Made by a program: the position numbers and the translations under genes. A stretch of 64,000 nucleotides of DNA from Hornefia butyriciproducens. GTDB lineage: Bacteria; Bacillota; Clostridia; Peptostreptococcales; Anaerovoracaceae. Below, piece after piece: positions 38,494 to 52,968 of the stretch (position 1 is the first letter of the stretch; each line of letters begins with the position of its first letter). The notes under the pieces were generated by a model that saw only the letters and a program-made list of their open reading frames with translations, was not told where the DNA came from and made no database searches. The stretch covers positions 434,001 to 498,000 of the forward strand of contig NZ_VUMZ01000001.1 in NCBI RefSeq assembly GCF_009695915.1, in the 5' to 3' direction.

Positions 38494-39324
38494 TTATTTC
38501 AGCGGCGGCAGGCTCAGGATCTCCCTTGCCTCTGCCGGCGTCGCGATGGGTCTTCCCAGAAGTTTCGCGATCTCCACAGCCTTGGCGACCATCTCGCCGT
38601 TGCTCTTGGCCAGAACGCCCTTCTCCAGGTACAGATTGTCCTCGAAGCCGACTCTGACGTGTCCGCCCATGGCGATGGTTCCCGCCGCAATATCCCACGC
38701 GGTCTTGCCGATTCCGGTCGCAGTCCAGGTGGATCCTGCCGGAATGGCATTCTTCATGATCACCAGATCCTCGATGGTCGCATTCATCTGCACGCCCAGC
38801 ACGAAGTCCCAGTGCAGCGGGTGAACCAGAAGCCCCTTGCGGTCCGCAACCTTCATCGCCAGGTCGATCATGCCCTTGTCGAATACTTCCAGCTCCGGCT
38901 TGATCCCTCTCTCCTTCAGGATCTTCGCGAAGTTTTCAATCGTAGTATTGGTGTTGACAAAGATGTCGTCTCCGCCGAAGTTGCAGGTGCCGCAGTCCAG
39001 CGTCGCCATCTCGGGCGTCGGCGTGATCTCTGTGGATTCCAGTCTCTCCAGATCGGTCATACCTACCGCTCCGCCGGTAGACGGCTGAATGATGGCGTCC
39101 GGGCATTCCTTGCGGATCGCGTCTACACAGACCTGAAAACGTTCCTTGCTCTGGGTCGGAGTTCCGTCATCCTCTCTGACGTGAAGATGAATCAGCGCAG
39201 CGCCGGCATCATAAGCCGACTTGGCTTCTCTGACAACTTCCTCCACTGTATAAGGTACGTTCGGATTCTGTTCCTTCGTAACTTCCGCGCCGCAGATGCA
39301 GGCACTGATGATTAACTTTTCCAT
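38494..39324 (-). CDS. kce: 3-keto-5-aminohexanoate cleavage enzyme (BKACE family)
   Basis: The 276-residue protein matches the Kce/BKACE family in length and motifs. The catalytic set known from Kce is at the same places: Glu14 (CICGAE), His46 and His48 (LIHLHVRE), and a glutamate at 228 (VRVGFEDN). Kce condenses 3-keto-5-aminohexanoate with acetyl-CoA to give 3-aminobutyryl-CoA and acetoacetate in lysine fermentation; other BKACE proteins use different keto acids, so the substrate is an inference. It sits alone between rapZ and whiA, where yvcK/glmR is expected. It has its own strong terminator. Confidence 0.85.
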   Translation of the reverse strand: MEKLIISACICGAEVTKEQNPNVPYTVEEVVREAKSAYDAGAALIHLHVREDDGTPTQSKERFQVCVDAIRKECPDAIIQPSTGGAVGMTDLERLESTEITPTPEMATLDCGTCNFGGDDIFVNTNTTIENFAKILKERGIKPELEVFDKGMIDLAMKVADRKGLLVHPLHWDFVLGVQMNATIEDLVIMKNAIPAGSTWTATGIGKTAWDIAAGTIAMGGHVRVGFEDNLYLEKGVLAKSNGEMVAKAVEIAKLLGRPIATPAEAREILSLPPLK

Positions 39325-43280: not shown

Positions 43281-43853
43281 ATGAATTTTTTTGTAATAAG
43301 CGATACGCACGGGCATCTGGAAAAGGTCTACGATATGTTCGACCGTCTTTCTGAAATGACTATCGACGGGAAACCTGTCGATATGATCCTTCACTGCGGG
43401 GATCACCTGCGGGACGGGGAAATCATCGGAGAGCGGCTTGCCGTACCGGCGGTTTCCGTCGCCGGAAACTGCGACGGCTGTCGGAAGCGGGATTTCCGGG
43501 TCGTTCCGTCGCCCGCCGGAAAAATTCTGATTACGCACGGGCATCTGGAAGGAGTCGACTACGATCTGTCCACGCTTCGCTATCTGGCGCAGGAAAACGG
43601 ATGCAGAGCCGCGTGCTTCGGACATACCCACGTTCCGGTATTCGAGGATATCGGCGGCGTTCTGATGATCAATCCGGGGAGCCTGACCTTCCCCCGGGAC
43701 GGGACCACCGGCTCCTGCGCCCTGCTGAACGCCACAGAAAACGGGTTCGACGGCGGCATTTATTACTATGAACATCTTTTCGGCGGGAAGGACCGAAAAA
43801 AATCCCGGGGAGGATTCCTCCGGGGGATGATTAATTACAGCGACAGATTCTGA
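43281..43853 (+). CDS. YfcE-type metallophosphoesterase
   Basis: The 190-residue protein has the five motifs of calcineurin-like phosphoesterases of the MJ0936/YfcE type: ISDTHGHL, ILHCGDHLRDG, VAGNCDGCRKRD, ITHGHLEGVD and CFGHTHVPVFEDIGG, then LINPGSLTFPRDG-like sequence. It hydrolyses small phosphodiesters in vitro; the cellular role is unclear. The last 19 bases overlap the end of the convergent flavodoxin-like gene, and a terminator for that gene lies inside this coding sequence. Confidence 0.93.
   Translation: MNFFVISDTHGHLEKVYDMFDRLSEMTIDGKPVDMILHCGDHLRDGEIIGERLAVPAVSVAGNCDGCRKRDFRVVPSPAGKILITHGHLEGVDYDLSTLRYLAQENGCRAACFGHTHVPVFEDIGGVLMINPGSLTFPRDGTTGSCALLNATENGFDGGIYYYEHLFGGKDRKKSRGGFLRGMINYSDRF
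43796..43828 (-). terminator. Terminator of the four-gene operon inside the phosphoesterase gene
   Basis: ATCCCGGGGAGG (43,802-43,813) pairs with CCTCCGGGGGAT (43,817-43,828) at 10 of 12 positions; on the minus strand TTTTTTTC follows. It serves the gene ending at 43,835 yet encodes the end of the opposite gene. Confidence 0.75.
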
Positions 43854-44929
43854 TCTGCCGCTTTTTCTTTCCCGCAGATCCTGGCTGCCATCTCTGCCGC
43901 GCGCTTCTGGATGCGCAGTCTCTCCAGGATGCTGCCGGGATCGTTGGCAGTCTCCACCAGTGCGAAGTTGCCGGGCAGAATAAAGTTTTTGTTGAAGCAC
44001 ATGGCGCCGATAATCTGTTCCGCCACGATGTCGCCGCCGCTGTATCCGGAAACGACAAGCGCATATACCTTTTTCCCGGAGAAGTCGTTGGTGCGGAACA
44101 GTGCCGTCAGGCGGTTGATAAAGGCGGTGATATTGGCACTGACCGCATCGTTGTAGTTGGGGCAGATCATGACCAGAGTGTCGCAGCGCAGAATGGCCGG
44201 ATACACCTGTTCCACCATTACGCCGCCGTACAGGCAGTCCCCTTGCTCGCCGAAGTGGACACAGGTTTCGTAGCTGCATCCGCTGCAGTCCACCACAGTT
44301 CCGTTGCGCAGAGAAATTTCCGTGATATCGCAGCGGCCTCCGATACCCTGCCGGATCATTTCCCACAGAAGCAGGGAATTGGATGTGGTGCTGTTGCTGG
44401 CGTGTACCGCCAGAACCTTCGGCCTCGGTGAGAACGGCATCCGAAAGGACAAAATCTTACGCACCAGATTTTCCACGCTGCGGGCGTAGGCTTCGTAATG
44501 CCCCACCCGGCTGATTTTACTCATCACGTTGAAATTGTACAGGTCTCCGGTAGCTTCCACCAGCGCTTTGCCGGGAAACGCAGCGCCCGCTCTGTTCGCA
44601 GAGAATACCATCTGCCGTGCCAGATTCTTGGTGTACAGTTCTCCCTTCCCATCGATCAGGATACCCGCTGTCGTCCCCCGGAGGCTGTCCCGGTTCTCAT
44701 TCAGCCAGCCGATCAGCCGCTGAGCATCCAGACATACGCCGCAATGCGGAAGACATACGGCAATGAGCAGAGGGCCTCCATTCCAGCGCTTATTCTCAAT
44801 CGCACCGGTAAATGCTGCACATCCGCAAAACTCCTCCGCGGGGATTTCCCGCAGGGCGCGGTTCAGCACATAATCGATGCGCCGCGTGTTTCCGCCTTCC
44901 TCCCATCCGATCTTCAGAACCGTCAACAT
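43835..44929 (-). CDS. Flavodoxin/NADPH-FMN reductase-like protein
   Basis: The 364-residue protein ends the four-gene operon. Residues about 1-155 are an unfamiliar domain with VLKIGWEEGGNTRRIDYV and ICLPHCGVCLDAQRLIGW-type text. Residues about 168-340 are flavodoxin-like: VLAVHASNSTTSNSLLLWEMI as the phosphate loop, VDCSGCSYETCVHFGEQGDC with clustered cysteines, then VMICPNYNDAVSANITAFINRL and VSGYSGGDIVAEQIIGAM. The cysteine set C-x2-C-x4-C-x7-C could carry an iron-sulfur cluster, as in iron-sulfur flavoproteins. It begins 20 bases after the dehydrogenase-like gene. The partner is unknown. Confidence 0.8.
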   Translation of the reverse strand: MLTVLKIGWEEGGNTRRIDYVLNRALREIPAEEFCGCAAFTGAIENKRWNGGPLLIAVCLPHCGVCLDAQRLIGWLNENRDSLRGTTAGILIDGKGELYTKNLARQMVFSANRAGAAFPGKALVEATGDLYNFNVMSKISRVGHYEAYARSVENLVRKILSFRMPFSPRPKVLAVHASNSTTSNSLLLWEMIRQGIGGRCDITEISLRNGTVVDCSGCSYETCVHFGEQGDCLYGGVMVEQVYPAILRCDTLVMICPNYNDAVSANITAFINRLTALFRTNDFSGKKVYALVVSGYSGGDIVAEQIIGAMCFNKNFILPGNFALVETANDPGSILERLRIQKRAAEMAARICGKEKAADQNLSL

Positions 44930-44949: not shown

Positions 44950-46002
44950 TTATTCCAGTTCCCGCAGGTGCATATATGCGCCTCGGATCCGTTCATACAG
45001 AGCATCCTCCACCATGAGATCTTCAAACTCGTTTCCGCTGTCGGTCAGCCGGTTGCGGATCCCGAGGAACGCGCCGTCTCCGTCTTTGTTCCCGAACCAG
45101 AGAGAGCTGTAATGCCATTGGCCCCGCAGCGTCAGCAAAATTGAGAGCGCCGCCGAGGAGAGAGCCGGCGCAATGTACGGCTTATATCCCAGCCGCCGTA
45201 CAATCTGATTTGCGTTCACCGTCAGATCGGTCAGCTCCCGGGAGAGCCCGTCGTCATAGTGCTCGATGCTGTTCGCAATGACCAGGTCCCGTCCGTGGGG
45301 GCCGAATGCCCGTCCTTCCGTCAGATAAGCGGAGAAACGATCATCCCGCTCTGCGTAATAGGACGCCCGGGCGTTCATCACGCCGAGCCCATAGCCGCGG
45401 AACTGCCGGGCATCCAGTCCCGAGCTCCGCACAAAGACCTTCGCGAGGGGATCCACAGGATCCGACACCACCGCCACAAGCCCTGAAAACTCCGCTTCTG
45501 CGGCCAGCGCTCCATACTGCCGGACCAGAGTGCGGTTCGTCTCAAGCTGCGCCATCCGCACATCCCCTTTCGCTCCGATCGCAGGAACGCCCCGGCTGGC
45601 ACAGAAGACCAGAATGTCACAGTCACAGATCTGTTCCTGCGGAACGACCCTGATCGGCGGGAGCACGGGATATACGTCAGCCACTGATTCAGCATGCTCC
45701 TCCGGTCTGCGGATTTCTTTCGCGGTCTCCTTCGCGGTGCGGGCTTCCTCCGGTCCCGGATACCGGATCTGATTCATTTCCATCTCCAGACGGGCCAGAT
45801 TGGCTTCATTCAGATCACAGATTCCAATGCTCTCCAGCACATCTCCGCCCAGCAGACGAAGCCCGATGAGCATGGTGGTCCCCACGTCACCGAGCGCGAT
45901 GATATTCAGCCGCAGCTTTTTCTTTCCGTTCCGGGGATCAAGACCGGTGACCGCGCCGGCGTCCAGTCCCTGCTCCCTCAGAATCTCACTTATTTTTTTC
46001 AT
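44950..46002 (-). CDS. Lactate/malate-dehydrogenase-like NAD-binding protein
   Basis: The 350-residue protein has a Rossmann start LNIIALGDVGTTMLIGLRLLG at about residue 32, followed by an acidic strand end, ICDLNEANLARLEMEMNQI. DILVFCASRGVPAIG and VVSDPVDPLAKVFV follow, where LDH/MDH enzymes have SNPVD-type sequence. A usual LDH is about 315 residues. The catalytic histidine and arginine pair is not clear by eye, so enzyme activity is uncertain. The ATG at 46,002 overlaps the large gene's stop by 4 bases. It is in the operon led by a KDD-like sigma-54 activator, so an amino-acid-catabolism role is likely. Confidence 0.72.
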   Translation of the reverse strand: MKKISEILREQGLDAGAVTGLDPRNGKKKLRLNIIALGDVGTTMLIGLRLLGGDVLESIGICDLNEANLARLEMEMNQIRYPGPEEARTAKETAKEIRRPEEHAESVADVYPVLPPIRVVPQEQICDCDILVFCASRGVPAIGAKGDVRMAQLETNRTLVRQYGALAAEAEFSGLVAVVSDPVDPLAKVFVRSSGLDARQFRGYGLGVMNARASYYAERDDRFSAYLTEGRAFGPHGRDLVIANSIEHYDDGLSRELTDLTVNANQIVRRLGYKPYIAPALSSAALSILLTLRGQWHYSSLWFGNKDGDGAFLGIRNRLTDSGNEFEDLMVEDALYERIRGAYMHLRELE

Positions 46003-49000
46003 GCCTTTTTCTTCCCCCATTTCAGCCGGATCAGCCGGGCGATCGCATTATCGATAAAGGCGGTCGGCGCCAGATTTTCATCCAGCTCAATTCCGGTTCC
46101 CATCTCCGGAATCCGCGGATAGGTGATTACCTCTCCGATCCTCTTCAGTGTCAGCTTTCGTTCATAGATGGACTGATATTCCTTTTCAATGACCTGCCAG
46201 ATATTCCGGGCGTTTTCCAGGCACGTCATGGAATACCTGAATATCTCCCCGACATTTCCGTCCGCGATGAACACCGGCGTGGTATAAGGCATAATCAGAT
46301 TGATTGAACCGCTCCTGAGCCCGTCCTTGTCGTTCGCCGGCGTCAGACTGTCCCCGCCGATAAAGGGATAGCAGTCCCGCTCATTCAGCCAGATCTTCAG
46401 CGTCGGCAGGAAATATGCGCTCTCCACCTCACGCCCCCGAACTTCCATAGCATCTCTGGCGTTTCCGGTCATGACTCCCACAACGATCTTTCGTACATCA
46501 ACCTCGTTCTTCTTCAGAATCGGATCGATGATGTTCATCCGGTATCCTTTGTGCAAAAGATCGTCTATGAGAATCACCGGGCGATCGAAAGATCGGATGG
46601 CTCTCGCCTGGGAATCCAGCGGCGAGTAATACCGGGACTCTCGGATCGTGAAGCCGTCCAGATCCGAATTGAAATACTTCTCCGTGTGGAGCACCTTGGT
46701 CACAGTGTTCGGCACCAGTACGTCAGCCAGCGCCTTTCCGAAGGGTACCGTCATATACGGTCCTCTCAACCCGCTCTTGTCGTGCACCGGCGGAACTCCG
46801 TTAATCTCAGCCACCCTCCGGATGATTTTATTGTGCACCGCGCTGGTGTTAAAGGAGAGCACCAGCTGCCCCGGATGAATCTCCGTCATCACCTTCAGCA
46901 GATTTCCGTGGGCCTCGTCAATCGCCCGGAGCACGGCAGACCGCTTATTCAGCGGATTCTTGATCATCGTCTCCACATCCCTGAAAATCACAATGGGGGA
47001 ACGCATGTCCACCGCATAGACGGGCTTTCCGCCGCGTCCCTCCGCGATGTTCACAAATCCCTGCTTCTTCAGCGCGTCGATGATTCTCGGATTCATCCCT
47101 GAGGCGTCCACAGGATGATATACCGCATAGGCAAAATCCCGGGAGATCAGCTCTGTCAGAATTTCCGTCAGCACAATCTGGCTGATGTTGGAGATGCTCC
47201 GACTCTTCTTGGTGTACAAAAACCCGATCGCTGCGATGCCGCCTGCTGCGGCCTCCCGGATATGCGAGGCAATCTTCAGGTCGCCGAATTCCCTCAGCAG
47301 CTGATTGGTTTCCAGCCGGTGAGCCGCCGCATACGCGACACACCGCCTGCTGCGTCCTGCAGATTCGATATAAAGTCCCCGTGTCTTTTCCCGTTCCAGA
47401 TATTCTGCGATTTTTCCGAAGTCATAGCCCATTCCCTCCAGATCTCTGCGAATCGGCTCAAGCGTCTCCGGAGACTGGCTGCTATAGGAGCTGATGCTGA
47501 TTTCTCTGGCCTGCAGCACGTGCTTGTACGCAGGCTCCCGCAGATACAGGCTTTTCTCATAGATATAGTTCTGCGCCACCGGGTCGATGAGATTGGAAAT
47601 ATCCCGGTTAAGGTCAATATTCTCACGAATCCTGGTGGAACTGATGTCCTCATAATATTTTTTCAGAGTCAGCGTGATCACTTTTCCGGTAATCGGATAG
47701 ATCCTGGCGTCCTGCGGACCGCGTTCCTGTTCCTTGGATTCCCTGGCAAAGACAATATGGTTCATCCCGTGGATAGAATCCTCTGCCGGCGTCTTCCGGT
47801 AGCAGGAGGCGTGACGGACCACGTCGGATCCGACCGCGATATAGAGTTCCCGTCCCTCGAAGGCCTGCTTCAGTCTCCGCACATCGTCATTGTTCGCGAT
47901 GTTCACGGAAAAATCATCCGGAAACGGATAAATCCCCTCTTCATCCGCCACCGACATATTCATGATCTTGCGGCGCTGGAGCCGTGGCTGCGTGTTCTTG
48001 GACCAGGAAAACTCATCCAGCGCCAGATACACGTCGAACCCCATATTCCGGATAGTTCTGGCCACTGCCTTATGCCCCAGACTGAACGGGTCGAAGGTGC
48101 CCGGGTAAAACGCAACCTTCCGCCGGGCCGGAAAACAGAATTCCCCCTTCTGCGCCCGGTGCTCGCAAATGTACCGATAGAGGCTGTTCAGCACAGCTGC
48201 GTTGTTATAGAATTCCAGAGCATCCTCGGTTTTCTCATGGAGCAGCGCCAGGAGTTTTTTGTGACAGTGCAGAAAGAGTTCATCCTTCTCATCGAGGGAC
48301 ATCTCCGTGCTCCCGAAAAGATATTTCCCCATGACCCAGAAGGCCTCCCGGCTCGCCAGCTTATCGTAGTTGGCGTACCCTCTTATCAGCATGTACAGCA
48401 GACGGATGCGCCTGCTGTTCCAACACTTCTCCGGTTCACGGAAGCGGTCTCTGTATTCACTGTAGTTCTCCAGAATCACGCCAATGGTGTTGATGGTCGC
48501 GGAGATCAGCTTGTCGTTCCCTGTTCCGACGACGCGTTCCAGTGTGTTGATAAACTCATCCAGCTCCTGAGGAGGCAGACGGAGCACCACATTCCCCAGA
48601 TAGTCCGGTATGTACTTGGAGAACTGGTAGTCGCCGATTTCCAATCCGTTGAACAGTTCCACCGAAAGTTCGTTCCGCTGCTCCGGACTCATCCGATCCA
48701 CAATTGTGAGCAGCCCGCGTCCTGCGGTTCTCCTCACCGTCACCGTCTCGCTGACCTTGATCAGATTGGAGAGATGCGTCGCCACATGGAGAATTTCGCC
48801 TTTGTTCTCCGGCCGTATCACGTAATCGATCATCATCTCGATGTTGGCGACCTTGACGACCCAGGGCGTTCCGGCCTTCAGGTCATCCAGGAACATATTG
48901 CTCATGCGTTCCGTGAAGGACTGCTCCTCGGTGATCCCTACAACTTTTTTCAGATGCTCCACGTGCTCCCGACCCACGCCACGACCGTGCAACGCACTGT

Positions 49001-50795
49001 CTGCATGAACCGCGGCAACAGCCAGCTTCTCCGTTCCGCTCTCGCCGGCACTGCGGATAAACTTGTCCAGAATTGTGATTTCCTGCCGGGAGCATTCCTC
49101 CTCCCTCAGTTCCATAATGGTCTTCAGCAGGATCATGATGATTTCCTCATCATAATCCGTTCTCCGGTAATAATCGATCAGGATGTTCATGTAGTTATAC
49201 AGACAGCTTGGCTTGCAGAAGCGAAGCACCGCGGCTGAGAAACTGTTCAGGCTGTTGCGTATCCATTTCTTATGCTGATCCGTCAGTTTATAGTCAGGCT
49301 CGATGATTTTTTGGAGATACTCCGCGAACAAAGTGAGGTTCGTCACGGCCTTGTCCGGAAGGGATTCACCCTCCGGCAGTTCTTTTTTGTATTCCTCGTT
49401 GAAGGTCCCGACAATCTGCCCCAGAAGCTCCGCCGCCTGACTTCGGATGTCTCCCTCCTTATGAGCCAGCAGCTCATACAGAAAGCGAATGGTCATCAGT
49501 TTCTGACGTTCGGTCATGTAGGTGGAATATTCTCCGAGAATGCTCACATATGTCCGGATGTTCTTCCAGTTCTGCTCGCTGCGGGCCGCCTCAATCAGGT
49601 TTCCGAATTCAGCGTCCACATGGAAACGGCTCATCAGACGGATGTTGTGGTCGATGGCCTTGTACCGCAGCTGTTCGATAACCTCTTCTCCCTCCAGCAA
49701 CACCATCTCCCGTTTCCGGGGTTTCCCGCAATGGGCAGGGTAGCGGGACGGTATCTCCGGCAGGGCAACGTCTACTCCCCGTTCCTTCATGTAGTCTTCG
49801 AAGTCCTCCAGCTTGTCGTACACCCTCTGATACCGCTGTTTCTTTGCCTCATCCACATTATCCAGCTTGTCCAGGATCACATCGAAGGCATCCGCCAGCG
49901 TATAGAAGCAGACCCGCTCTCTGTCGTTCCCGTCCCGGCAGCTCTTTACCCGGAAATCAGCATAAATCAGAATCAGGGATTCCGCGGACAGATTCTCCAG
50001 CTCCAGATCCCAGGTCGAATGATTGGCCGCGATGTGGCCGATAGTCGGCATTCCGAACCGGTCGTAGCATCGGTCCGTGTAGTAGTAGTGAAGATACGGG
50101 ATGCGCCGCTCCTCGCTTTTTCGACAGCCGTATTTCCCGATATCGTGCCCCGCCGCCGCTCCGGATACGATTCCCAGATCCACCGGAGCTCCGGCTTCCG
50201 CAAGCTGGCGGGCCACATGCATCGCAACATAGTGCACGCCTCCGATGTGCCCCAAAGTATTGAACGGCGTGATGTCTGTGCCGATACGCATGAACTCATA
50301 AAAATAGCGGTGCTTCACCAGATGATGAAGCTTGATGTACTCACGCGTATAGCCTCCCTCTTCAATTTCGTCGTCTGTCAGAAACACCATGCTGCGGGTC
50401 GGATCAAAGGGAAGATTTTCCTCTTCATAGGCGTACAGTCCCCTCAGAATCTGGAGGAGCAGCACACTCCCTTCCTCATAAACCGCCCGGTGCTCCGGCT
50501 CCGGCATCGTCTCGAAAAGCTGGTGGAGAATATCCCTGAAGCACCAGGACAGCCACCCCTCGGGAGGCTCCTCATTCAGCGTGCCGAAATATTCCGCAGC
50601 GACCTTCACCACCTCCCGGGAATCGAACCGCGGGTTCTCCAGCAGAAGGTCCGACAGCTCCTGCGCCATCTCCCACAGTCCCGCCGATGCGATTTTCCGT
50701 TCCATCTCCCTGCGGGTCTTTCCCGTTTCCTTCAGAAACGCCCGATCCAGCAATGCTTTGTTCAATGCTCTGTAAATCAGAGATTCTCTTCTCAT
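45999..50795 (-). CDS. Giant HD / helical-repeat / NadD-like / GNAT-like / PRTase-like protein
   Basis: The protein of about 1,598 residues has several enzyme-like domains. Residues about 180-310 are an HD-type metal hydrolase (GHIGGVHYVAMH, then AAGHDIGKYG with HD at 218-219, ANHST). Residues about 370-880 are helical repeats of ARM/HEAT appearance. Residues about 893-1,060 are a nucleotidylyltransferase of NadD type (VAFYPGTFDPFSLGHKAV, then DISSTRIRENI). Residues about 1,100-1,265 look like a GNAT acetyltransferase. Residues about 1,290-1,500 are phosphoribosyltransferase-like with a PRPP loop (RPVILIDDLLHKGYRM). GGAGG is 6 bases before the ATG at 50,795. NAD or nucleotide metabolism is inferred. 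I know no characterised protein of this form. Confidence 0.75.
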   Translation of the reverse strand: MRRESLIYRALNKALLDRAFLKETGKTRREMERKIASAGLWEMAQELSDLLLENPRFDSREVVKVAAEYFGTLNEEPPEGWLSWCFRDILHQLFETMPEPEHRAVYEEGSVLLLQILRGLYAYEEENLPFDPTRSMVFLTDDEIEEGGYTREYIKLHHLVKHRYFYEFMRIGTDITPFNTLGHIGGVHYVAMHVARQLAEAGAPVDLGIVSGAAAGHDIGKYGCRKSEERRIPYLHYYYTDRCYDRFGMPTIGHIAANHSTWDLELENLSAESLILIYADFRVKSCRDGNDRERVCFYTLADAFDVILDKLDNVDEAKKQRYQRVYDKLEDFEDYMKERGVDVALPEIPSRYPAHCGKPRKREMVLLEGEEVIEQLRYKAIDHNIRLMSRFHVDAEFGNLIEAARSEQNWKNIRTYVSILGEYSTYMTERQKLMTIRFLYELLAHKEGDIRSQAAELLGQIVGTFNEEYKKELPEGESLPDKAVTNLTLFAEYLQKIIEPDYKLTDQHKKWIRNSLNSFSAAVLRFCKPSCLYNYMNILIDYYRRTDYDEEIIMILLKTIMELREEECSRQEITILDKFIRSAGESGTEKLAVAAVHADSALHGRGVGREHVEHLKKVVGITEEQSFTERMSNMFLDDLKAGTPWVVKVANIEMMIDYVIRPENKGEILHVATHLSNLIKVSETVTVRRTAGRGLLTIVDRMSPEQRNELSVELFNGLEIGDYQFSKYIPDYLGNVVLRLPPQELDEFINTLERVVGTGNDKLISATINTIGVILENYSEYRDRFREPEKCWNSRRIRLLYMLIRGYANYDKLASREAFWVMGKYLFGSTEMSLDEKDELFLHCHKKLLALLHEKTEDALEFYNNAAVLNSLYRYICEHRAQKGEFCFPARRKVAFYPGTFDPFSLGHKAVARTIRNMGFDVYLALDEFSWSKNTQPRLQRRKIMNMSVADEEGIYPFPDDFSVNIANNDDVRRLKQAFEGRELYIAVGSDVVRHASCYRKTPAEDSIHGMNHIVFARESKEQERGPQDARIYPITGKVITLTLKKYYEDISSTRIRENIDLNRDISNLIDPVAQNYIYEKSLYLREPAYKHVLQAREISISSYSSQSPETLEPIRRDLEGMGYDFGKIAEYLEREKTRGLYIESAGRSRRCVAYAAAHRLETNQLLREFGDLKIASHIREAAAGGIAAIGFLYTKKSRSISNISQIVLTEILTELISRDFAYAVYHPVDASGMNPRIIDALKKQGFVNIAEGRGGKPVYAVDMRSPIVIFRDVETMIKNPLNKRSAVLRAIDEAHGNLLKVMTEIHPGQLVLSFNTSAVHNKIIRRVAEINGVPPVHDKSGLRGPYMTVPFGKALADVLVPNTVTKVLHTEKYFNSDLDGFTIRESRYYSPLDSQARAIRSFDRPVILIDDLLHKGYRMNIIDPILKKNEVDVRKIVVGVMTGNARDAMEVRGREVESAYFLPTLKIWLNERDCYPFIGGDSLTPANDKDGLRSGSINLIMPYTTPVFIADGNVGEIFRYSMTCLENARNIWQVIEKEYQSIYERKLTLKRIGEVITYPRIPEMGTGIELDENLAPTAFIDNAIARLIRLKWGKKKA

Positions 50796-50812
50796 CAATT
50801 TCCTCCGGCATC

Positions 50813-52900
50813 CTACAGCCCGTATTTCAATTTTTTTCGCGCTAAGGTCGTCTGGGGAAGCCCCAGCATATCCGCCGCCTTACGCGTAGTCTTCTCTTTC
50901 TTCAGTGCGTATTCGATTAAACGTTTTTCCTGCTGCTCCATGATCTGATGGAAATCCAGTCGATCATTCCGGTCATAAGTCTTGCGGATGCTCCGGACCA
51001 GATCGCCGTAGGCGCTTTCATTCAGAAGCGCGTCAACATCCTCGTCGCCGATGACATTTCCTCTGGTGCTTATCACCAGACGATGCACCACGTTCTCCAG
51101 TTCCCGCACATTGCCTGGCCAATAGTAATCATACAATCGGTTCAACGCTTCGGGGGAAAGCTCCTTGGCCGTACCATACCGCTTGTTACATTTCTCCACA
51201 AAGAATTCCGCCATCACGAGGATATCCGCCCGCCGTTCCCGCAGCGGCGGAACCTCGATGGTGCAGATATTCAGCCGGTAGTACAGATCCTCCCGGAATT
51301 TGCCCTGATCCACCAGCTGGCGCAGCGGCACGTTGTTGGCGCAGATCACACGCACATTCACATTGATCTGTTTCGTTCCGCCCACCCGGTAGAACTGGTT
51401 TTCCTGGAGTACCCGCAGCAGCTTGGACTGCATGTTCATGGAAAGAGTTCCGATCTCATCCAGGAACAGAATACCCTCGTTAGCCGCCTCGAAGTATCCG
51501 GCTTTTCCGCCGGCCTGTGCCCCGGTGAACGCGCCGGACTCGTACCCGAAGAATTCGGATTCCGCCAGATTCTCCTGAATCGTGGCACAGTTAATCCGGA
51601 CGCAGGGCTTGGCGCACCGCTCGCTGTTCTGATGAATCAGTTCCAGCACCTTCTCTTTTCCGACACCGGTCTCTCCCTGAATAATCACGTTACAGTCGTA
51701 ATGGGCGATATTCAGAACGTCCTCTACCATATTGCGGGTCACAATGTCCTGATAAATGAAGCCGTCGTCCCGTCCCGCGTTCTCCACGGCTCGGCTCTTC
51801 GCTCTGCTCTGCACCTGGTGCCGGCTTCCGGAATAACTCCGGTACATTCCGTCGATTTCCTCCAGCTTGGGCGCCAGAACATACAAAATCTGCCGGGAAA
51901 AGTCCAAGAACCCGTCAATAAACTGATCGAAGGCGTAGCTGATTACCATCTTTCCGAGGGCTTCCGCACAGAGCGCCGCGATGTTGTAATTGCTGTCAAA
52001 GGAAGTAAAGTAAATGGCTCCCCGGTTTTTCACCAGTTCTACGGCCATCGTTTCCGTTCCCGCGATATCGTCAGTAACGATCACCATGTCGATCGGGCTG
52101 CGTATCTTCAGATCCTGTTTCAGAGTTTCGTAGGTTTTCACCGGCTCGCTGAAGTTCACAAAATGAATGTCTTTAATCAGTGGCGTCAGCACGCGGACGA
52201 TCTCCTCTCTGGAAATGTTGTCGTTATAGTAATCGTCCACGATTCCGATGACCTGATATTCCGGTCCGATGGCCTCCCGCATGGACGCCGCGTACAGCAG
52301 CATCGTATGGAGATTGTTCCCCAGAATCGCCACCGTACGGCAGTCCTGCTCCTGTGCCGCAATATAAGAGCCGTAAATACTTCCTGACTCGTCGAAAGCC
52401 GCCATCATGGCTTTGTCACTCAGATTCAAAAGCATACTAGGCCGATATACCGGTGATGTTTCAAAGATGATTCCGTAGCCGGAACAGCGGATCTGCCCGT
52501 AGTCGAAGTCGATTTCTGTAATCTCGTCAATATGCAGCGGAAGAGATGTCAGCGAGGTCAGACAGTATATCCGGTCACCCGGCTGAATCGCAACATCTGC
52601 ATTAAAACTGGGGGAGACTGCTTCCACAGTTCCCATCAGCACGCCTCCGGAACGGGTGAACGGGTTCTGCAGCTTGCCCCTCTTCTCCACAATGTCGAAG
52701 ATGCGCGCCCGGATCTTGTCCTCTGCATAGCCGCTGCTGCTGCAGATCTGCTGAAAGCTGTCCCACTCTATATTGATCAGTTCAAGGCGGATACGCGCCT
52801 CTCCCCGCCGGATTTCCCGATCCGTATCCAGCCTCCAGGCGATAGGCGGAAAGACTCCCTTCGGCTCCAGCACTCTGCCAAGTCCAAATTCTCGTTCCAT
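50813..52900 (-). CDS. Sigma-54 activator with a KDD-like N-terminal domain
   Basis: About 695 residues. The first about 340 resemble the lysine-fermentation enzyme L-erythro-3,5-diaminohexanoate dehydrogenase (KDD): GRVLEPKGVFPPIAWRL, RGKLQNPFTRSGGVLMGTV, PGDRIYCLTSLTSLPLHIDEI and AILGNNLHTMLLYAASMREA. The last replaces the GxxGKSGM dinucleotide loop of KDD, so NAD binding is probably lost or changed. Residues about 375-620 are a sigma-54 AAA+ domain with Walker A GETGVGKE, the GAFTGA loop and Walker B ILFLDEIG. The end is a Fis-type helix-turn-helix (TTRKAADMLGLPQTTLARKKL). GGGAG precedes the ATG at 52,900. It leads the operon and probably senses a lysine-pathway intermediate. Confidence 0.85.
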   Translation of the reverse strand: MEREFGLGRVLEPKGVFPPIAWRLDTDREIRRGEARIRLELINIEWDSFQQICSSSGYAEDKIRARIFDIVEKRGKLQNPFTRSGGVLMGTVEAVSPSFNADVAIQPGDRIYCLTSLTSLPLHIDEITEIDFDYGQIRCSGYGIIFETSPVYRPSMLLNLSDKAMMAAFDESGSIYGSYIAAQEQDCRTVAILGNNLHTMLLYAASMREAIGPEYQVIGIVDDYYNDNISREEIVRVLTPLIKDIHFVNFSEPVKTYETLKQDLKIRSPIDMVIVTDDIAGTETMAVELVKNRGAIYFTSFDSNYNIAALCAEALGKMVISYAFDQFIDGFLDFSRQILYVLAPKLEEIDGMYRSYSGSRHQVQSRAKSRAVENAGRDDGFIYQDIVTRNMVEDVLNIAHYDCNVIIQGETGVGKEKVLELIHQNSERCAKPCVRINCATIQENLAESEFFGYESGAFTGAQAGGKAGYFEAANEGILFLDEIGTLSMNMQSKLLRVLQENQFYRVGGTKQINVNVRVICANNVPLRQLVDQGKFREDLYYRLNICTIEVPPLRERRADILVMAEFFVEKCNKRYGTAKELSPEALNRLYDYYWPGNVRELENVVHRLVISTRGNVIGDEDVDALLNESAYGDLVRSIRKTYDRNDRLDFHQIMEQQEKRLIEYALKKEKTTRKAADMLGLPQTTLARKKLKYGL

Positions 52901-52968
52901 AAAAAATACTCCCATCCTCAGCTATGCAGTCACTCATGCGCCCTGGCGCCGGATTGCGCACCGCGGAG

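Follow-up and report, generated by a model that had tools for sequence, protein, structure and literature searches.

A conserved giant gene with HD, NadD-like and PRTase-like domains, and its two putative redox partner genes, in some anaerobic clostridia

The giant gene and its locus

The 64,000-nucleotide (nt) stretch of Hornefia butyriciproducens DNA analysed here (contig NZ_VUMZ01000001.1, positions 434,001 to 498,000; hereafter the window, whose numbering is used for all coordinates) carries a very long gene, here called the giant, whose product joins an HD domain, HEAT-like helical repeats, a NadD-like adenylyltransferase domain, a GNAT-fold domain and a type I phosphoribosyltransferase (PRTase)-like domain. 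It is followed in operon-like order by genes for a lactate/malate dehydrogenase (LDH/MDH)-fold protein (partner 1) and an FMN_red protein (partner 2). The original prediction, made from the letters of this stretch, described one unbroken frame of about 1,598 residues with this domain set and order. That frame is indeed open from its ATG, which has a good Shine-Dalgarno-like site, to its stop, and the HD motif, the nucleotidylyltransferase signature and the loop of the phosphoribosyl pyrophosphate (PRPP) type lie where they had been placed. Residue numbers below start at a TTG three bases upstream of the ATG (1,599-aa form).

The giant is real and is conserved in some anaerobic clostridia. Full-length homologues (n = 51; 35-54% identity) have the same domains in the same order, so a fusion or assembly error is ruled out; a fusion error confined to one lineage was looked for and not found. 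What is conserved is a three-gene unit, and the earlier finding covered only one of its members.

Domain assignment and structure models

Pfam detects only the NadD-like part in the window copy; among 46 family members it finds HD in 21 and PRTase in 23. The chain was modelled as two overlapping pieces with AlphaFold2, each from a 12-sequence input. The model of residues 885-1599 (predicted local distance difference test, pLDDT, 72; predicted template modelling score, pTM, 0.74) matches NadD, GNAT and xanthine PRTase (XPRT)/PurR structures, and the model of residues 1-892 (pLDDT 76, pTM 0.54) matches HEAT-type repeat proteins in Foldseek and VIA-align. No HD protein is among the listed fold-search matches for the N-terminal model, and the HD assignment rests on Pfam and residue conservation. 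Sequence searches of the PDB gave weak matches for the HD profile (best E 0.11) and the PRTase profile (best E 0.22); by Foldseek and hhalign the PRTase-like domain is nearest to XPRT and PurR-like proteins. Because parts of the NadD region are modelled at low confidence, that assignment leans on sequence profiles: NadD entries match it at E about 5e-7, and a profile comparison with the genome's own NadD gives E 1.2e-14. The top structural matches of the GNAT fold include N-terminal and ribosomal-protein acetyltransferases.

Conservation of catalytic-type residues

Across the window copy and its 51 homologues (52 sequences), 193 positions are at least 96% conserved. Counted by domain in 52 sequences, with three second copies (see below) excluded, invariant positions number 35/195 in HD, 38/206 in NadD and 27/275 in PRTase, against 22/544 in HEAT, 4/175 in GNAT and 0/150 in the N-terminus. 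HD phosphohydrolases bind metal through an H...HD...D pattern, which the giant keeps as H184, H218, D219 and D281, together with H237 and H260; these six and K222 are each present in 52/52. The second His of the adenylyltransferase motif, H909, is likewise in 52/52; in the ISSTxI motif S1054 is in 52/52 and S1053 in 51/52, and position 1055 is Thr in 43/52. In the PRPP-type loop D1412, G1418 and R1420 are each found in 52/52, and D1413 in 49/52. No family-wide loss of NadD-like or PRTase-like catalytic residues was found, the exception being NadD decay in four copies described below. The coenzyme A (CoA) pyrophosphate loop of GNAT enzymes has the form Q/RxxGxG/A. The corresponding columns of the giant (about 1200-1206, placed by eye without a structure alignment) are variable and have no conserved Gly, so the loop looks lost.

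The NadD-like domain is not a standard NadD

Fold and signatures (GxFDPxxxxH and ISSTxI) are common to the giant and NadD (TIGR00482), yet the giant scores only 39.5 bits (44.7 in the genome search) against a cut-off of 112.45. When the 51 giants were compared with 21 canonical NadDs (those of the 20 best-scoring loci of the carrier search and the genome's own), 14 of 38 NadD-conserved columns proved identical in all giants, nucleotide-binding signatures included; among them are G900, F902, D903, P904, H909, R942, G990, D992, R1019, I1052, S1053, S1054 and I1057. The columns that differ include a Trp and a YT pair that we take to be the nicotinate side of the NadD pocket: the Trp, present in 21/21 NadDs, is Tyr in 51/51 giants, and the YT pair falls in gap columns in 51/51. 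The part of PMC8562812 consulted places NadD Trp117 only at an inhibitor site. As far as the alignment tells, the domain keeps the ATP-binding signature and is without the presumed nicotinate side. A separate NadD above cut-off was found in 54/57 carriers of the giant, and on that ground the reading as an NAD-synthesis enzyme standing in for NadD was rejected. Because the score is far below the NadD cut-off, the presumed nicotinate side is replaced and a separate NadD is so common, the product of the giant is probably not NAD (nicotinamide adenine dinucleotide) itself.

Distribution

Counting matches below E 1e-100, the giant is present in 31/119 genomes of its own family and 32/391 of its class; genome counts given here may be lower bounds, as scoring covered only the best few candidates in each genome. 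Named carriers include four Fusibacter species or strains, Alkalithermobacter and Acetoanaerobium. The PRTase profile of the giant matches 8/398 genomes of the phylum, its own included, and all eight matches lie within frames of 1,573-1,667 aa, with no stand-alone PRTase domain among them. Phyla beyond its own were covered by one pattern scan.

A mobile or phage origin was considered and rejected. There was no phage match. With the giant's C-terminal part as query 0/53 viral stretches were confirmed, PHROGs gave no family at E 0.01, and at that threshold none of the three proteins matched a PADLOC (anti-phage defence) family. The sole "plasmid" match is an Acetoanaerobium noterae record, which carries the giant and both partners. 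It is of note that this record (NZ_CP154629.1, locus L134; 2.63 Mb, 4 annotated features), although filed as a plasmid, looks like a chromosome from its size.

The putative redox partners

Most homologues keep the same two neighbours. Direct comparison finds partners 1 and 2 each in 51/53 loci (missing in L069 and L100); the LDH/MDH-fold gene is at +1 on the same strand in 48/52, and the two redox genes are the only neighbours common to more than 10 of 52 loci. Genome-wide co-occurrence was counted for partner 1, partner 2 being known from the loci. In the class sample partner 1 occurs in 31/32 carriers and 0/359 non-carriers; the sole carrier without it, G293, is rated 84% complete and has a truncated frame for the giant. 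In the giant's own family it occurs in 30/31 carriers (not G060) and in 0/12 non-carriers tested.

Partner 1 is open to misannotation as a lactate dehydrogenase. The catalytic residues of LDH/MDH enzymes are Arg109, Asp168, Arg171 and His195 (PMC4109310, in the part consulted). Compared with eight true LDHs by two MAFFT methods, which agree, partner 1 keeps the equivalents of Arg109, Arg171 and His195 but fails the catalytic set, since Asp168 is replaced by Met in 51/51; Asn140 is Asp, also in 51/51. The Rossmann GxGxxG is shared, with Ala for the first Gly in 22/51. Against the LDH model the genome's only match is partner 1, at 24.6 bits (cut-off 303.55). Additional invariant residues (Arg237, Arg275, Lys280) might, being basic, suit a phosphorylated substrate; the N-terminal extension is variable. 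Partner 2 shares with NADPH-dependent FMN reductases and iron-sulfur flavoproteins an FMN_red domain (51/51) and a Cys cluster (invariant Cys 215, 218, 223 and 232), and has an extra N-terminal region. Iron-sulfur flavoproteins have the FMN_red fold with a compact four-Cys motif; the C-x2-C-x4-C-x8-C spacing of partner 2 differs from that pattern. A PDB sequence search with partner 2 gave no match up to E 0.1.

Table 1. Features of the giant gene, its neighbours and related loci (window numbering unless a locus is named)
Feature	Position	Strand	Remarks
Giant polyenzyme gene (candidate)	45999..50795	(-)	1,598 codons from ATG 50795, stop additional
Shine-Dalgarno-like GGAGG	50802..50806	(-)	6 nt before ATG 50795; read directly in the sequence
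N-terminal helical region, residues 2-150	50349..50795	(-)	poorly conserved; helical in AlphaFold2 model
HD domain, residues 151-345	49764..50348	(-)	Pfam in homologues and residue conservation
HEAT-like helical repeats, residues 346-889	48132..49763	(-)	AlphaFold2 model; Foldseek, VIA-align
NadD-like adenylyltransferase domain, residues 890-1095	47514..48131	(-)	sequence profiles, conserved signature
GNAT-fold domain, residues 1096-1270	46989..47513	(-)	structure matches; little conserved
Type I PRTase-like domain, residues 1271-1545	46164..46988	(-)	carries PRPP-type loop VILIDDLLHKGYR
Partner 1, LDH/MDH-fold protein	44950..46020	(-)	22-nt overlap of its frame with the end of the giant; could also start at an internal Met, 46002
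Partner 2, FMN_red protein	43835..44929	(-)	starts 20 nt after partner 1
Sigma-54 activator with N-terminal KDD-like domain	50813..52915	(-)	ends 17 nt before the giant
3-Keto-5-aminohexanoate cleavage enzyme	38497-39324	(-)	between rapZ and whiA
APH-fold kinase-like gene, L109	10905-11843		divergent from second copy
APH-fold kinase-like gene, L110	10259-11182		divergent from second copy
APH-fold kinase-like gene, L100	4017-4946		divergent from second copy

Natural losses of the NadD-like part

Four copies of the giant have no adjacent partners. One (L069) is the only copy in genome G060; the others (L100, L109, L110) are second copies in G314, G270 and G423, each of which carries a first copy and partner 1 as well. 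NadD invariants are lost at 14/43 positions in L100, 8/43 in L109, 19/43 in L110 and 5/43 in L069. HD invariants are lost at 0/36 in the three second copies and 1/36 in L069, PRTase invariants at 0/27 in all four, HEAT invariants at 0/23 in L100 and L109 and 1/23 in L110 and L069, and GNAT invariants at 1/4 in L100 and 0/4 in the rest. When the 51 other copies were each tested against the rest, 46 had lost no NadD invariant and 5 had lost one; partner-bearing copies had lost at most 2 HD, 3 HEAT, 2 GNAT and 1 PRTase invariants. In these alignments the integrity of NadD, not of HD or PRTase, goes with the two redox partners. Since partnerless copies lost NadD invariants and kept HD and PRTase, it is the putative adenylyl-transfer part that is associated with the partners.

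Instead of partners, each of the three second copies has beside it a divergently oriented gene for an APH-fold kinase-like protein, which scores 65-72 bits with Pfam APH (cut-off 23.2) but does not reach the NCBIfam cut-offs for aminoglycoside phosphotransferases.

Proposed function and alternatives

What might such a chain do? We tentatively suggest, with somewhat less than even confidence, that the giant is a polyenzyme making a non-nicotinate nucleotide, which it can also break and on which the partners act. The PRTase-like domain would transfer ribose 5-phosphate from PRPP onto a base or small acceptor, and the NadD-like domain would adenylylate the resulting mononucleotide with ATP to give a pyrophosphate-linked dinucleotide. 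The HD domain, by analogy with NadD-YqeK, would cleave, by hydrolysis, phosphate or pyrophosphate bonds in the intermediate, the product or a misformed product, and could so act as an off-switch or in proofreading. A structural role, as a frame for the other parts or as a binding site for a partner, may fall to the HEAT repeats together with the degenerate GNAT fold, and the LDH/MDH-fold and cysteine-bearing FMN-reductase-like partners may make, reduce or use the dinucleotide. A NadD joined in one protein to an HD hydrolase able to cleave the NadD products has been reported before (PMC9426524). The original prediction had one chain building, breaking and modifying a nucleotide or NAD-like cofactor. 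Building and breaking remain plausible readings of the sequence; modifying has little support because no conserved CoA loop is seen where it was placed in the GNAT domain, and, given the NadD score and pocket, NAD itself is probably not the product. That the product is an as yet undescribed dinucleotide redox cofactor, built from PRPP, ATP and a base other than nicotinamide, and open to dismantling by the same chain, with the partners as dedicated oxidoreductases, is a bolder version that we think rather unlikely.

Several observations weigh against the polyenzyme. Four further NadD-invariant positions, with no assigned role, are altered (G899 to Pro, H906 to Ser or Thr, P928 to Asp, K931 to Ser), as are other columns; in HxGH the leading His gives way to Ser or Thr and in one copy to Ala. 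Because of these changes adenylyl transfer by the giant is not certain. The PRTase match is only moderate, and the PRPP-type loop has Lys in 45/52 where PRTases commonly have Thr. The partnerless copies represent two independent lineages, three of them forming one clade (FastTree support 1.0); the copy in G060, though partnerless, still has H909 and the greater part of the signature, and its loss is partial. Finally, the NadD-decayed copies are otherwise intact, and HD and PRTase must therefore have a role of their own.

The Lys in the PRPP loop, the apparent loss of the GNAT CoA loop, the HEAT-like scaffold and the proximity of the PRTase to XPRT and PurR-like proteins would also suit a sensor or regulatory scaffold, in which ATP, PRPP and other nucleotides bound by the HD, NadD-like and PRTase-like domains would be read as a measure of energy or purine state, much as PurR uses its PRTase fold, and the HEAT repeats would relay the signal to a partner. 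Such signalling would be protein to protein because Pfam shows no DNA-binding domain in the window copy. We consider this improbable, since the near-invariance of the adenylyltransferase signature and of all six candidate HD metal ligands goes beyond what mere ligand binding calls for, and the partners look like enzymes. Dehydrogenase-fold and flavin-reductase-like partners could belong to a repair or salvage system for ordinary nucleotides or pyridine cofactors, one that removes NAD, flavin or dinucleoside polyphosphate molecules that are damaged or incorrect, and NadD-YqeK offers a precedent for proofreading and, as cited there, Ap4A hydrolysis (PMC9426524, same portion). This too is doubtful: the presumed nicotinate side of the pocket is replaced, a PRTase is not obviously needed, and the patchy presence noted above (31/119 and 32/391 genomes) would be odd for general repair. 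Least probable, and distinctly so, is modification of a macromolecule, with the HEAT repeats binding a protein or RNA that the transferase domains adenylylate or ribosylate; it would account for the repeats and for the acetyltransferase matches of the GNAT fold, but the CoA loop is not conserved where placed and the only recurrent neighbours are the two redox genes.

Relation to known systems

The mycoplasma NadD-YqeK fusion (JCVISYN3A_0380) likewise unites an HD hydrolase with an adenylyltransferase of the NadD family in a single protein, for making and breaking a dinucleotide (PMC9426524). The giant differs in having HD first and an altered NadD pocket, in its length (1,598 residues, compared with the 361 positions of NCBIfam model NF005519), and in its further domains (HEAT, GNAT, PRTase) and its pair of redox neighbours. 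In an hhalign comparison with a single HD protein, which is encoded next to the NadD of this genome and which from position and motif we take to be YqeK, its HD domain gave no significant match (E 0.025, probability 2%), and membership of the YqeK family is not supported. With XPRT and PurR the giant shares the type I PRTase fold and an acidic PRPP-type loop followed by Gly; the loop reads HKG or NKG in the giant, mostly ANG in XPRTs and KAG or RGG in PurR-like proteins, and the giant has in addition the invariant Arg1420 and a large C-terminal part.

A literature search limited to open-licence PMC papers found no paper on this architecture. The chain, its architecture and its gene group are covered by no family or system tested; the chemistry suggested for them is hypothetical. 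If the proposed mechanism is true, the fixed three-gene unit would represent a nucleotide cofactor or signal pathway in anaerobes, and the natural losses of one step make the mechanism directly testable. Should the giant turn out to be a sensor instead, a nucleotide-binding hub of 1,600 residues that is conserved in the manner of an enzyme would still be new.

The upstream regulator and lysine fermentation

The sigma-54 activator upstream of the giant is not a conserved neighbour and is possibly a local regulator. Its N-terminal domain is related to L-erythro-3,5-diaminohexanoate dehydrogenase (KDD; E 1.8e-39, below the family cut-off) and is perhaps used as a sensor. Sub-cut-off KDD matches occur in 686-731-aa frames in G000:C4, G011, G072, G083, G095 and G212 (KDD part only compared).

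The KDD-like regulator raises the possibility of a link of the giant to lysine fermentation, which is not adopted here. KDD above cut-off is present in 19/29 carriers and 4/50 non-carriers, and the glycine/betaine reductase GRDB in 25/29 (in G032 only a fragment) and 5/50; GRDB is absent from the window's own genome. The carriers are 29 of the 32 in the class (G293, G354 and G459 left out), the non-carriers were hand-picked from 359, and Fisher tests on these counts ignore kinship. As this sampling leaves confounding by phylogeny, the link is only a hint. Elsewhere in the window, a gene between rapZ and whiA encodes a lysine-fermentation protein, the 3-keto-5-aminohexanoate cleavage enzyme (403 bits with NF052387, cut-off 382).

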